The notes beneath the pieces are model-generated. The model was not told where the DNA came from, ran no database searches, and worked only from the letters and a program-made list of their open reading frames with translations. From positions 1-57,153 of the forward strand of contig JANWYO010000061.1 in assembly GCA_025055215.1 (NCBI GenBank): a stretch of DNA of 57,153 nt, read 5' to 3'. Of this stretch, positions 52,200 to 57,153 are shown piece after piece. Made by a program: the position numbers and the translations under genes. The DNA is from Gemmataceae bacterium (GTDB lineage Bacteria; Planctomycetota; Planctomycetia; Gemmatales; Gemmataceae). The first letter of the stretch is position 1; each line of letters begins with the position of its first letter.

Positions 52200-53606
52200 T
52201 CAATCGCAGGGCACGGCCGTGACCTTCAGGGTTGGTGGCGGCAGGCTGGGGTGGCGCTTGTTCGCGAAGCCGTGCACCAGGTCGCCGCGGCCGCTGCCGA
52301 CGGTATTGCGGACGAGGATGAACGTCGCCAAGCCGTTGGTGTCCGCTTTCAGGAAGTTGACCAGGGCCGGGCCGCCGATGCTCCGCGTTCCGCCCTGCAC
52401 TCCCTGGGCCACCTCGAACGTTCCCAGCAGCACCACCTTTGCCATATCCACGCCCGCCCCGCCGGGGCCGTTCGCCGGAGCGTTGGACCAGCGGAGGGTA
52501 CGCTCCTCCCAATCGTCCAGCGATTCGTCGGTCAGGCCGTAAACGGAAAAGATGGCGTCCGGGACTTCGGAGGCGAACCCCATCCCCGTCGGCACGACGG
52601 TGAACGACAGCTGGGCGTCGAGGATGGTCATGCCGGCCAGGGGGGTCAGGTCGAGGCCGATGTAGGCTTTGCGGTTGTAGTCGGACCTGGGGGGAACGGT
52701 GTTCTTGACCAGCAGCAGGATGTCGGAGCTGTTCACCGAGGGGAACAGGGGCTGGACGTAGGCGTCCTTGCCTCGGCCGGTCGCGGTGGAGATCTGCACG
52801 ACGCGGGCTTGCTCGGTGTCGGGGGGCAGGGGGAGGCGCGGAGGGTTTTCCGCTTGCGGGTCGAAGTCGGCAGCGGTGGCGACGCCGAAGCGGCGGTTCC
52901 GGCCGCTCGTCAGCGACTCACTTCGGCCAGTGGTGCGGTGCTCCACGTCCACACGCCCCTCGAACACTTGCAGATCGGCCGTCTGAGCATCGCGGACATA
53001 GACGCCGAATTCCGTCCCCAAGTCGCGCATGACGGCGGTCGGGGTGTCCACCACAAAGCCCCGGGCGCGAGGCGGCACCTTGGCGACCAGACGGCCGGCA
53101 TGCAGGCGGCAGCGCCGCGCGGACACGATTTCCAGGTCGGCAGGAGCTTCCAGGGTCACGTCGGCACCGTCGTCGAAAACGATCCGGGCGATCCCCTCGG
53201 CCAAGCGAAGTCGGCCCGGACCGAGGCGGGCGCCCAGCTCGGTTGGCAACGTCCCCGCGTCCCATTTGCACGACTTGCCGCCGGCGAGGGTGGCCACCGG
53301 CGGCGCCATCATGGCCTGGGCGTACCAGGCGATGACAGCCAGCGTGAGGGAGGCGGCCAAGGCGGTCGCCCCGGCGAGCAGCCAACGGCGCGGTCGACTC
53401 GGTCGGGCGACCACCGCCCGGCCGACGGGTTCCTCGTCCCACTCCGCCGCTGACCACGCCAACACCGCATGCTGATGCACATACTCGACGTACTGCCGCC
53501 GTGCCTCAGGGTCTTCCTTCACCCGCTGCTCCAACCGAAGCCGCTGTTCCTCGGTCAGTCGGTCCTCGATCACCGCTTCGCACAGCTGCCAAAGTTCGTT
53601 ATTCAT
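52200..53606 (-). CDS. FecR-domain membrane protein with C-terminal DNRLRE-like domain
   Basis: A 468-residue protein. A short N-terminal helical anti-sigma-like region (LCEAVIEDRLTEEQRLRLEQ) faces the cytoplasm, then one membrane helix (about 75-96). A FecR domain spans about 130-235 (GRLRLAEGIARIVFDDGADV, VVDTPTAVMRDLGTEFGVYV, VFEGRVDVEHRT). From about 300 to the end it matches the DNRLRE family (AYIGLDLTPLAGMTILDAQL, LDDWEERTLRWSNAPA, LATFILV), where planctomycete homologues more often have a LamG domain. It overlaps the ECF sigma gene by ATGA, so it is very likely that sigma factor's anti-sigma or signal receiver. Confidence 0.88.
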   Translation of the reverse strand: MNNELWQLCEAVIEDRLTEEQRLRLEQRVKEDPEARRQYVEYVHQHAVLAWSAAEWDEEPVGRAVVARPSRPRRWLLAGATALAASLTLAVIAWYAQAMMAPPVATLAGGKSCKWDAGTLPTELGARLGPGRLRLAEGIARIVFDDGADVTLEAPADLEIVSARRCRLHAGRLVAKVPPRARGFVVDTPTAVMRDLGTEFGVYVRDAQTADLQVFEGRVDVEHRTTGRSESLTSGRNRRFGVATAADFDPQAENPPRLPLPPDTEQARVVQISTATGRGKDAYVQPLFPSVNSSDILLLVKNTVPPRSDYNRKAYIGLDLTPLAGMTILDAQLSFTVVPTGMGFASEVPDAIFSVYGLTDESLDDWEERTLRWSNAPANGPGGAGVDMAKVVLLGTFEVAQGVQGGTRSIGGPALVNFLKADTNGLATFILVRNTVGSGRGDLVHGFANKRHPSLPPPTLKVTAVPCD

Positions 53607-54157
53607 GGCCGGGCTTGCCTTTGCAGCGACTGAGTGACACATGCGTGCAGGGCGCGTCGGATGCGGCTGAGGGCGCGGTAAACGGCATCGACGGTACGTT
53701 GCAGCTGCTGGGCGATGGCTTCGACGGACAAGCCGTCGCTATAGCGGAGCCTCAGTAGAGTGCGGTGGTCGGGCGGCAGCTTGGCGATGCACCCTGCCAG
53801 CGCTTGGGCCCGATCGTCCAACTCGTCGCCGCGGGCAATTGCTTCCTCCGCGACCGACTCCAGGAACTCGGGGCTGAGTTCCAGCCGGTCGCGTTGGCGG
53901 CGCTTTCGCCAAGCCAGCACTTGATGGAAGGCGATTTTGCAGGCCCAGGCAGCGAAATTGGTGCCGGGTTGAAATCGCCCAAACTCCCGCCACAGCACCA
54001 GGTTGGTCTCCTGAACGATCTCCTCGGCGTCGTCCCAGCGCGGCACGAGGCTGAGGACATAGAGGAAAATCCGACGCTGATGCTGCCCCAGCAGGCGAAC
54101 AAACGCCTCCACCTGCTCGGAAGAAAGACCAGCGTCCGGCGGGGTCGGAGAAGCCAT
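53603..54157 (-). CDS. ECF-family sigma factor (planctomycete/Rhodopirellula type)
   Basis: A 184-residue sigma factor. Region 2 lies at about 14-85 (FVRLLGQHQRRIFLYVLSLV, WDDAEEIVQETNLVLWREFG, AWACKIAFHQVLAWRKRR); region 4 at about 122-175 (LPPDHRTLLRLRYSDGLSVE and IAQQLQRTVDAVYRALSRIR). The Met of MASPTPP was chosen; the 48 extra residues of the long frame are not sigma-like and cross the dyad upstream. It is translationally coupled to the FecR gene and divergent from the cytochrome-type gene, a known planctomycete arrangement. Confidence 0.93.
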   Translation of the reverse strand: MASPTPPDAGLSSEQVEAFVRLLGQHQRRIFLYVLSLVPRWDDAEEIVQETNLVLWREFGRFQPGTNFAAWACKIAFHQVLAWRKRRQRDRLELSPEFLESVAEEAIARGDELDDRAQALAGCIAKLPPDHRTLLRLRYSDGLSVEAIAQQLQRTVDAVYRALSRIRRALHACVTQSLQRQARP

Positions 54158-54242
54158 GCGCGGACCGTCGTGCGCTGCCACGTCCGGGCCGCCGCCAGCG
54201 TCGGCGGCGGCCACCAAAAGAAATAAAGCCCGAAGCGGTCCC

Positions 54243-54266
54243 TTTTGGACAAATTTGTGTCCAAAA
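54243..54266. promoter_or_regulatory. AT-rich dyad between the ECF sigma and PSCyt/PSD1 genes
   Basis: TTTTGGACA (54243-54251) and TGTCCAAAA (54258-54266) are perfect inverted copies, 6 bp apart, with the inner palindrome ACAAATTTGT across the centre. It is 85 bp from the sigma start and 79 bp from the PSCyt/PSD1 start, in the middle of a 188-bp divergent region that is otherwise GC-rich. It looks like an operator or a shared control site. Confidence 0.6.
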
Positions 54267-54345
54267 CTGGCCGCATCGGCTCTTTTACGGATAGACTCCA
54301 TCTTGACCCGCCTGGTTTCTGCCCGCCGCGAGAGGATTTGCCATC

Positions 54346-57153
54346 ATGCCTAACGTGGGACACTGGGTCGGGGGCGCAGCGGTGCTGTGGCTGGCATCCG
54401 TCGCAGCGGCGACCTCCCCCGATCGGGCCGGGGTTGAGTTTTTCGAGCAGAAAATCCGGCCTGTCCTTGTCAAGCATTGTTACTCCTGCCATTCCGCTGA
54501 GGCGAAAAAGGTCAAAGGCGGTCTGCTACTCGATACGCGGGCCGGCATGCTCAAGGGAGGGGACACAGGCCCGGCCGTCGTCCCCTTTAAGGTTGAAGAG
54601 AGCCTGGTGATTAAAGCTCTCCGGCACGATGAGTTGGCGATGCCCCCCTCGACGAAGTTGCCGGATGACGTCATCGGCGATTTTGAGCGCTGGATCCGCC
54701 TGGGGGCCCCCGACCCGCGCGACGGGCAGCTGGCGGTCAGCAAGCCGGCCATCGACCTCGAAGCCGGTCGGAAGTTCTGGTCCTTCCAGCCCCTGCGGGC
54801 GACGCCGCCGCCGACGGTGCGCGACACGGCCTGGCCTTGGACCGACATCGACCGCTTCCTCTTGGCCGCTCTGGAGGCCCGGGGCTTGAAGCCAACCCGC
54901 GACGCTGACCGGGAAACACTCGTCCGCCGCGTGACGATCGCCCTGACCGGCCTGCCGCCCACCCCCGACGAGCTGGACGAGGTGTGTCACGACCCATCGC
55001 CGGCGTGGTTCGAGCGCCTGGTGGATCGCCTCCTGGCATCGCCGCACTTCGGCGAGCGCTGGGGCCGGCATTGGCTGGACGTGGCCCGGTACGCCGACTC
55101 CAACGGCAAGGACGAAAACCTCACCTTTCACGAGGCGTTTCGCTACCGCGATTATGTGATCCAGGCCTTCAACACGGACAAGCCGTTCGACCGGTTCTTG
55201 ATCGAGCAGCTGGCGGGCGACCTTCTTCCCGCCGACTCCCCGCAGCAACGCGACGAGCAATTGACGGCCACGGGCTTCCTGGTCGTGGGGCCAAAGGTCC
55301 TCGCCGACCGCGATGTCGTCAAGCGGCGCGCCGATGTCATCGACGAGCAGCTCGACACGATGGGCCGGGCGTTTCTCGGCATGACGCTGGGTTGCGCTCG
55401 CTGCCACGACCACAAGTTCGACCCCATCCCGAGCAGCGACTATTACGCCCTGGCGGGGATCTTCGGCAGCACCCGCACCCTCGACGGCATCAAGGCCGGC
55501 AACGCCGTTATCTCGGGTTGGATGCTTCGGCCCCTCGGACCGGATGGCGAGGCCCGCTGGGCCGCGCACAAAGAGCACCAGAAGAAGCTGGCAGCTCTGG
55601 CTGGCCAGATCAAGAAACTCCGCGACGAACTCAAAGGGCACGAGGACAAGGCCACGATGCGCGTGCCCTCCCGGCTCATCGGCTTCACCGTGGACGACAA
55701 GGAGGCACAACTGATCGGCACCTGGAAGCCATCCACCTTCAGCCGGCCGTACGTGGGCGACGGCTACATCCACGACGACAAGTCGGGGAAGGGGGAAAAG
55801 TCGGCGACCTTCACCCCCAAGCTCCCCAAGGCTGGCGAGTACGAGGTGTTCCTCGCGTACACGCCGGGCAAAGGCCGAGCGACCAATGTCCCCGTCACCA
55901 TCCGACACGCCAGCGGTGAAACTACCGTGCGGGTCAACCAGGAAGAAAGGCCCCCGCTCGACAATTTGTTCCGCTCGGTGGGCACCTTCCGCTTTGAGGC
56001 CGGCAGCAGCGGCTCGGTGACCATCAGCAACCAGGGGACGATCGGCTACGTCATCGTCGATGCCGTGCGCTTTGTGCCAACCGGGGCGTTGGGCAAAGAC
56101 CCCGAGATGGCGATGGGCGTTCCCGCCGAGGTGAAGGAAAAGATTGCCGACGTGCAGGCCCGGCTGAAAGCCCTGGAGGCCGAGGAGCGTGCCCTGAAGG
56201 CGGCGAGCCCGCCCGAGCCGGAGCTGGTGATGGCGGTCCGCGACGAGGACACCATCGAAGACATGCGCATCCACCTGCGAGGCAATCCCCATGCCCTCGG
56301 CGACGTCGTGCCGCGCGGCTTCTTGTCGGTGCTGAGCGTCGGCCCACGGCCGACGCTCCCCCCGAATCAGTCGGGGCGGGTCGAACTGGCCCAGTGGCTC
56401 GTCGGCCCCGCCCAGCCTCTCACCAGTCGCGTCTTCGTCAACCGCGTCTGGAAGCACCTGTTTGGCGAGGGCCTGGTGCGGACCGTCGATAACTTCGGCA
56501 CCCAGGGGGAGCCACCAACCCATCCGGAACTGCTCGACGAACTGGCGCGGCGTTTCATCGCCGACGGCTGGTCGGTCAAGAAACTCATCCGCGCCATCCT
56601 GCTGAGTCACGCTTATCGGTTGAGCGCGGACGCGGAGCCGGCTTTGGTGCGTGCGGACCCGGACAATCGACTCTTCGGACGAGCTTGTCGTCGGCGGGTC
56701 GAAGCCGAGGTCATTCGCGACAGCATCCTGGCCGTCGCCGGCACCCTCGACCGCACGATGGGTGGCTCATCCGTGACGAACCTCGGCGAGCGGGCCATCG
56801 ACAACAGCTCGCAAGGCGGTTTGCAGGCCCAGATGGAGAGCAGCGTTCGCCGGAGCGTCTATCTGCCGATCATCCGCAATGAGCTGCCCAAGGTCTTCGA
56901 GGTGTTCGATTTTGCCGACGCCGACGTCAGCACCGGCCGACGGGATACCACCACGGTGCCGACGCAAGCGCTCTACCTGCTGAATAGCCCGTTTGTGCTC
57001 GCCCAGGCCCAGCAAACCGCCCGCCGACTGCTGGCCCTGCCCACGGACGACGCCGGCCGGCTCACGGACCTTTACCGCCGGGCGCTCGGCCGCCGGCCGA
57101 GCGCCCCGGAACGGGCCGCGGCCCCGCGGCGACGCGACCACCGCCGCCCCACC
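54346..57153 (+). CDS. PSCyt1-DUF1549-DUF1553 cytochrome-type protein (3' end cut)
   Basis: At least 936 residues, running off the right edge without a stop. A signal peptide (about 1-23) is followed by the PSCyt1 heme-binding-like domain with CYSCH (45-49). DUF1549 comes next (FGERWGRHWLDVARYADSNG) and holds a second CxxCH, CARCH at 350-354. A coiled segment (about 405-436) precedes a golvesin/Xly-like beta domain (about 458-578; PKAGEYEVFLAYTPG, YVIVDAVRFVP) and a second coil. DUF1553 starts near 679 (LTSRVFVNRVWKHLFGEG, TQALYLLNSPFV). Such proteins are secreted, of unknown enzymatic role, and linked to polysaccharide use. AGAGGA precedes the ATG. The final dozen residues, rich in Arg, look unlike the family. 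Confidence 0.93.
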   Translation, partial: MPNVGHWVGGAAVLWLASVAAATSPDRAGVEFFEQKIRPVLVKHCYSCHSAEAKKVKGGLLLDTRAGMLKGGDTGPAVVPFKVEESLVIKALRHDELAMPPSTKLPDDVIGDFERWIRLGAPDPRDGQLAVSKPAIDLEAGRKFWSFQPLRATPPPTVRDTAWPWTDIDRFLLAALEARGLKPTRDADRETLVRRVTIALTGLPPTPDELDEVCHDPSPAWFERLVDRLLASPHFGERWGRHWLDVARYADSNGKDENLTFHEAFRYRDYVIQAFNTDKPFDRFLIEQLAGDLLPADSPQQRDEQLTATGFLVVGPKVLADRDVVKRRADVIDEQLDTMGRAFLGMTLGCARCHDHKFDPIPSSDYYALAGIFGSTRTLDGIKAGNAVISGWMLRPLGPDGEARWAAHKEHQKKLAALAGQIKKLRDELKGHEDKATMRVPSRLIGFTVDDKEAQLIGTWKPSTFSRPYVGDGYIHDDKSGKGEKSATFTPKLPKAGEYEVFLAYTPGKGRATNVPVTIRHASGETTVRVNQEERPPLDNLFRSVGTFRFEAGSSGSVTISNQGTIGYVIVDAVRFVPTGALGKDPEMAMGVPAEVKEKIADVQARLKALEAEERALKAASPPEPELVMAVRDEDTIEDMRIHLRGNPHALGDVVPRGFLSVLSVGPRPTLPPNQSGRVELAQWLVGPAQPLTSRVFVNRVWKHLFGEGLVRTVDNFGTQGEPPTHPELLDELARRFIADGWSVKKLIRAILLSHAYRLSADAEPALVRADPDNRLFGRACRRRVEAEVIRDSILAVAGTLDRTMGGSSVTNLGERAIDNSSQGGLQAQMESSVRRSVYLPIIRNELPKVFEVFDFADADVSTGRRDTTTVPTQALYLLNSPFVLAQAQQTARRLLALPTDDAGRLTDLYRRALGRRPSAPERAAAPRRRDHRRPT

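Follow-up and report, generated by a model that had tools for sequence, protein, structure and literature searches.

Organization of the locus and its inverted repeat

The window, a 57,153-nucleotide stretch of DNA from a Gemmataceae bacterium (contig JANWYO010000061.1), carries two divergent sets of genes close to one end. On the minus strand lies a gene for an ECF sigma factor of 184 aa (53603..54157, ATG at 54157), which scores 184.2 bits against the TIGR02989 (Sig-70_gvs1) model, above the cut-off of 124.55, and belongs to this ECF family; its Pfam domains are Sigma70_r2 and r4_2. The next gene (52200..53606, minus strand) encodes a putative anti-sigma factor that has a FecR domain and, at its C-terminus, a DNRLRE/CBM96-like part. 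The ATG of this gene (53606), read from the sequence, overlaps the sigma stop codon (ATGA), while the ORF tool places the start at 53642; the FecR domain (PF04773) is recognised with 40.2 bits, and a FecR partner therefore follows the sigma gene, as in FecI-FecR systems. The predicted target gene occupies 54346..57153 of the plus strand (ATG at 54346), runs off the contig end and encodes a PSCyt1-PSCyt2-Golvesin_C-PSD1 protein. The Golvesin_C domain of this protein, residues 451-577, is situated between PSCyt2 and PSD1.

An inverted repeat, TTTTGGACA-AATTTG-TGTCCAAAA, is visible in the sequence at 54243..54266, between the two sets. A sequence-only reading had described it as a perfect 9-bp inverted repeat with an inner 10-bp palindrome, almost equidistant from the divergent starts. 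Indeed, the 9-bp repeat is present at exactly these positions, the inner palindrome ACAAATTTGT occupies 54249-54258, one base off the outer centre, and the dyad lies 85 nt from the sigma start (54157) and 79 nt from the PSCyt start (54346). The exact dyad pattern occurs a single time in the 4.58-Mb genome, where the nearest other match within 3 mismatches is one 3-mismatch hit on a different contig. As a bare inverted repeat, the dyad is only mildly unusual. Of 2000 Markov-shuffled versions of the 188-nt gap, 27 contained a perfect 9-bp repeat whose loop was 10 or shorter, and of 20 shuffled whole windows, 4 contained such a repeat with AT-rich arms. The inner 10-bp palindrome is probably fortuitous.

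The symmetry extends beyond what had been described. A repeat search revealed an extended imperfect inverted repeat at 54230..54279, with 22-nt arms that are 82% complementary, which is explained by two whole, similar predicted promoters facing apart. Counting overlaps, the window contains 59 perfect inverted repeats with arms of 9 or more and loops no longer than 10, against a shuffle mean of 5.35, and the dyad is the only one of them with AT-rich arms. The repeat search also returned a GC-rich perfect 10-bp inverted repeat at 54187..54212, in the predicted sigma mRNA leader (minus strand). The fold of the corresponding hairpin does not stand out from shuffles (z -1.15), and the repeat is probably incidental; an Rfam scan of 53900-54600 gave no match.

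Two divergent ECF-type promoters predicted at the dyad

Read outward from the arms, the sequences TGTCCAAAACTGGCCGCATCGGCTCTTTT (+) and TGTCCAAAAGGGACCGCTTCGGGCTTTAT (-) are identical at 20 of the first 28 bases. The consensus of each predicted promoter is [T/C]GTCC[A/G]A-N13-GGCTCT, with one site per gene direction. The site facing the PSCyt/PSD1 gene spans 54258..54283 on the plus strand (-35 TGTCCAA, 54258-54264; -10 GGCTCT, 54278-54283), and transcription would be expected to start near 54290 (+). Its counterpart facing the sigma-FecR operon spans 54226..54251 on the minus strand (-35 TGTCCAA, 54251-54245; -10 GGGCTT, 54231-54226), with an expected start near 54218 (-). In both, the -10-like element begins 20 nt from the first T of the -35, and the dyad corresponds to the two -35 elements, which lie back to back and 6 bp apart. 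The plus-strand site is an exact match to the consensus, the sole one in the genome; the sigma-side -10 (GGGCTT) departs from it, and the strict pattern TGTCCRA-N13-SGCTCT is matched on the plus strand only. The same TGTCCAA...GGCTCT arrangement precedes the sigma gene in the closest sigma orthologues.

These sites were then scored with a matrix learned elsewhere. One scan yielded 80 sigma loci, and a 28-position matrix was iterated on the 26 nearest, with 24 sites kept; training used only sigma-gene promoters of other genomes, and the window was excluded. The null consisted of 1040 Markov-simulated upstream regions, whose best score was 16.6 and 99% point 12.0. Against this simulated maximum, the window sites score 29.3 on the PSCyt side and 18.6 on the sigma side, so that a predicted site lies ahead of both the PSCyt target and the sigma operon.

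The motif at sigma genes of relatives and the residues that probably recognise it

Of the 26 nearest loci (of 80), 21 have a site ahead of the sigma gene; in 16 of them it is strictly significant, with p<0.01 on the sigma side in leave-one-out scoring. Weaker sigma-side sites, below the 99% point of the null, are seen in L034, L038, L042 and L057 (p 0.02-0.08), and that of L052 is recognisable only if the spacer is shortened by one base. The remaining 54 of the 80 sigma loci all stay below the 99% point. The -10 end comes as close as 18-21 nt to the start codon, as a promoter allows. A sigma orthologue match at E<=1e-45 was present in only 11 of 102 genomes of the order, mostly at loci already among those compared.

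On a tree of 81 rows, the 22 motif rows all fall inside a single sigma clade of 31 rows (100/99). Each of the 22 carries R161 and S164 in the sigma4 recognition helix, a pair found in only 2 of the 58 scorable rows without a called motif, the corresponding residues of the outside clade being Q and G; L046 and L059 keep both residues, yet have no recognised site. When the recognition-helix positions of the window sigma factor are aligned with those of E. coli sigmaE, R161 and S164 correspond to S172 and F175, which are described in PMC6713349 as touching -35 bases. Among tree-independent pairs, three agree on an association of R161/S164 with the motif, none opposes it and one is undecided (p 0.25). 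Coevolution of these residues with the motif is therefore suggestive in these sequences and, with so few independent pairs, not significant; R161 and S164 are probable recognition residues. The sigma factor of L044 (JAIXLE010000044.1), a sequence labelled as Bacteroidales bacterium, groups with Gemmataceae rows, and the entry is probably a mislabelled MAG.

Genomes of the window's family are rich in ECF paralogues, with 14 matches in the window's own genome. With so many candidates at hand, the sites could be real, conserved promoters that are read by another sigma factor, either a paralogue or the housekeeping one, while the linked ECF factor has other targets. However, the motif occurs solely at loci from a single sigma clade (0 of the 54 others) and follows the recognition-helix residues (22 of 22), and a search of 54100-54400 for a housekeeping-type (sigma-70-type) promoter found none. 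We therefore consider reading by another sigma factor to be highly improbable.

The motif at PSCyt target genes

In 18 genomes we looked for PSCyt orthologues, whose upstream regions were absent from the training of the matrix. Five of the six orthologues adjacent to the sigma gene score above the 99% point, as do six of 12 second PSCyt copies. Among the 12 orthologues that are not direct neighbours of the sigma gene, eight pass: both of those separated from it by one gene, and six of the 10 located elsewhere in the genome. On the other hand, none of 40 PSCyt paralogues taken as controls from these genomes had a site, and 500 column-permuted matrices recovered at most 2 of the 12 non-adjacent orthologues. 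The antisense strand gave no site for the 12 non-adjacent orthologues and none for the 40 controls, with four for the second copies; three of these four (L153, L154 and L155) are convincing divergent sites and that of L152 is weak. The site is absent in four of the 12 non-adjacent 'best' PSCyt orthologues; in G069, one of the genomes concerned, a second copy has it.

In the window's own genome, a search allowing 2 mismatches returned 28 sites vs 39 for the reversed control, and nothing outside the locus therefore stands out. When 19 genomes were searched with the strict pattern, 38 sites were obtained vs 19 in the control, an excess compatible with a regulon that would comprise a few genes per genome.

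Half-sites follow gene direction, and their spacing varies

An opposite-strand site accompanies the sigma-side motif in 15 of the 22 motif loci, window included: 14 are above the 99% point and that of L034 is weaker. Cultured relatives with this paired layout include Singulisphaera acidiphila DSM 18658 (L038) and the Pan216 isolate (L034). Wherever a directly divergent PSCyt gene (7 loci) or DUF1559 gene is visible, such an opposite site is present. The divergent DUF1559 gene, which is pseudopilin-like, was confirmed with Pfam in the four loci tested (L036, L047, L048 and L052) and identified by eye in L054 and, across an interval of about 0.9 kb, in L038. In L057, the ORF that the opposite site faces has no Pfam match, and in L058 the contig end truncates the locus. 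The seven motif loci without an opposite site have no directly divergent PSCyt gene and carry the half-site alone; the nearest case among them is L049, in which PSCyt-like matches start about 1.8 kb away. Since opposite sites track divergent targets, the half-sites follow gene direction, as promoters do. In the six loci with the DUF1559 gene, PSCyt lies behind it wherever the contig shows it, which suggests that the pseudopilin and PSCyt proteins are regulated together as a set.

In 13 relatives, the two -35 elements are separated by 27, 37, 37, 37, 47, 52, 65, 66, 75, 77, 90, 98 and 109 bp, against 6 bp in the window. The symmetry is thus not conserved: the sequence-only reading had named conservation of the dyad itself as a check, and the symmetric 24-bp dyad is absent from all 13 of these other divergent loci. 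Instead, the conserved unit is a single arm plus a -10-like element, set at a constant distance from it and oriented towards a gene. Since the gap varies among relatives, the palindrome appears as a by-product of an unusually small one.

The sequence-only reading had also proposed that the dyad may bind a repressor. More generally, it could be an operator through which a symmetric (dimeric) repressor or activator controls both genes, as its perfect 9-bp symmetry, its position between divergent genes and its uniqueness in the genome would lead one to expect. However, half-sites lie 27-109 bp apart in the 13 divergent relatives, where neither spacing nor symmetry is kept, and stand alone at the 7 non-divergent loci, and on these two grounds the repressor operator was rejected. 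Furthermore, every half-site has a -10-like element at a fixed distance, and its occurrence follows the sigma clade; in a non-systematic look through the window, the sigma factor was the only transcription-factor gene seen beside the dyad. An operator of either kind is thus hardly tenable. A functionless chance repeat in an AT-richer intergenic patch, for which the gap shuffles and the probably incidental inner palindrome might speak, is practically negligible, since both arms fit a motif learned elsewhere better than any of the 1040 simulations.

Proposed function of the two predicted promoters

Collectively, these data argue that the dyad represents the -35 elements of two divergent ECF promoters, which would both be read by the adjacent sigma factor and would activate the sigma-FecR operon and the PSCyt gene; we assign this interpretation a probability of about 0.87. 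As far as sequence comparison goes, the predicted site is shown to be bipartite, of fixed geometry, directional and present at both genes in relatives as well as ahead of distant target orthologues. The suggestion made earlier, that the dyad overlaps a promoter used by the sigma factor itself, is accordingly well supported for a predicted promoter, in both directions, by the matrix scores and by conservation among orthologues. That the sigma factor is the protein that binds these sites is what we infer from this pattern.

In the proposed mechanism, the FecR-like protein most likely restrains the sigma factor, and a signal would free the sigma factor from this anti-sigma partner. The freed factor would transcribe its own sigma-fecR operon, thereby creating a positive feedback, and also the divergent PSCyt/PSD1 gene. 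RNA polymerase bound at one promoter would extend upstream beyond its -35. With only 6 bp between the -35 elements, two polymerases would thus probably exclude each other, leaving a single promoter in use at any moment.

It is possible, though rather doubtful, that the tight back-to-back layout is itself a selected switch, which couples sigma/anti-sigma output to target output. If only 6-10 bp separate the -35 elements, a pair of ECF holoenzymes might be unable to co-bind, or might bind cooperatively, and the two outputs would therefore be coupled. A compact layout like that of the window was found in three related genomes at the second PSCyt copy. These back-to-back ECF-type sites, with gaps of 10, 10 and 9 bp in L153, L154 and L155, are located about 100-200 nt upstream of that copy and face a divergent gene, which in L153, the tested one of the three, belongs to the ThuA family (Pfam). 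No sigma gene match was found within the fetched 1.5-kb flanks of these loci. Compact pairs thus appear to recur, but the three genomes are close relatives and may represent few events.

The predicted arrangement resembles autoregulated ECF promoters of the E. coli sigmaE and B. subtilis SigW type, which likewise have bipartite -35/-10 elements at fixed spacing and serve the sigma operon and a target. It differs in the -35, AAC-bearing there and TGTCCAA here, and in having two sites back to back, 6 bp apart; AAC/CGT is given as the usual ECF -35/-10 type in the account of PMC8103513. As in FecI-FecR signalling, an ECF sigma gene is followed by an overlapping FecR-domain gene. However, FecI-like factors are named as exceptions to autoregulation in the same account (PMC8103513), whereas the window sigma factor is predicted to be autoregulated and its predicted target here is a PSCyt/PSD1 gene. 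No TonB-dependent receptor gene was noticed among its neighbours.

The closest precedent is RB10049/RB10051 of Rhodopirellula baltica, where an ECF factor was likewise proposed to regulate a PSCyt2/PSD1 gene, a proposal of Studholme et al. as related in PMC2754498. That account, in its passages on this proposal, differs in giving no promoter sequence; it counts 41 PSCyt/PSD1 genes per domain in R. baltica (PMC2754498). Our literature search found no report of the present promoter; the ECF reclassification (10.1093/nar/gkaa1229), which lay outside this search, may list a group motif. ECF control of PSCyt/PSD1 genes has thus already been proposed, and this promoter is unreported in the literature searched.

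The locus illustrates that two promoters, instead of an operator, can underlie a striking palindrome between divergent genes. Furthermore, PSCyt/PSD1 genes exist in dozens of copies in planctomycetes. Since both promoters are probably read by the adjacent sigma factor, they hint at how the PSCyt family is switched on, and a promoter code for one ECF clade, combined with its probable recognition residues, could help to predict which PSCyt copy is paired with which sigma factor.
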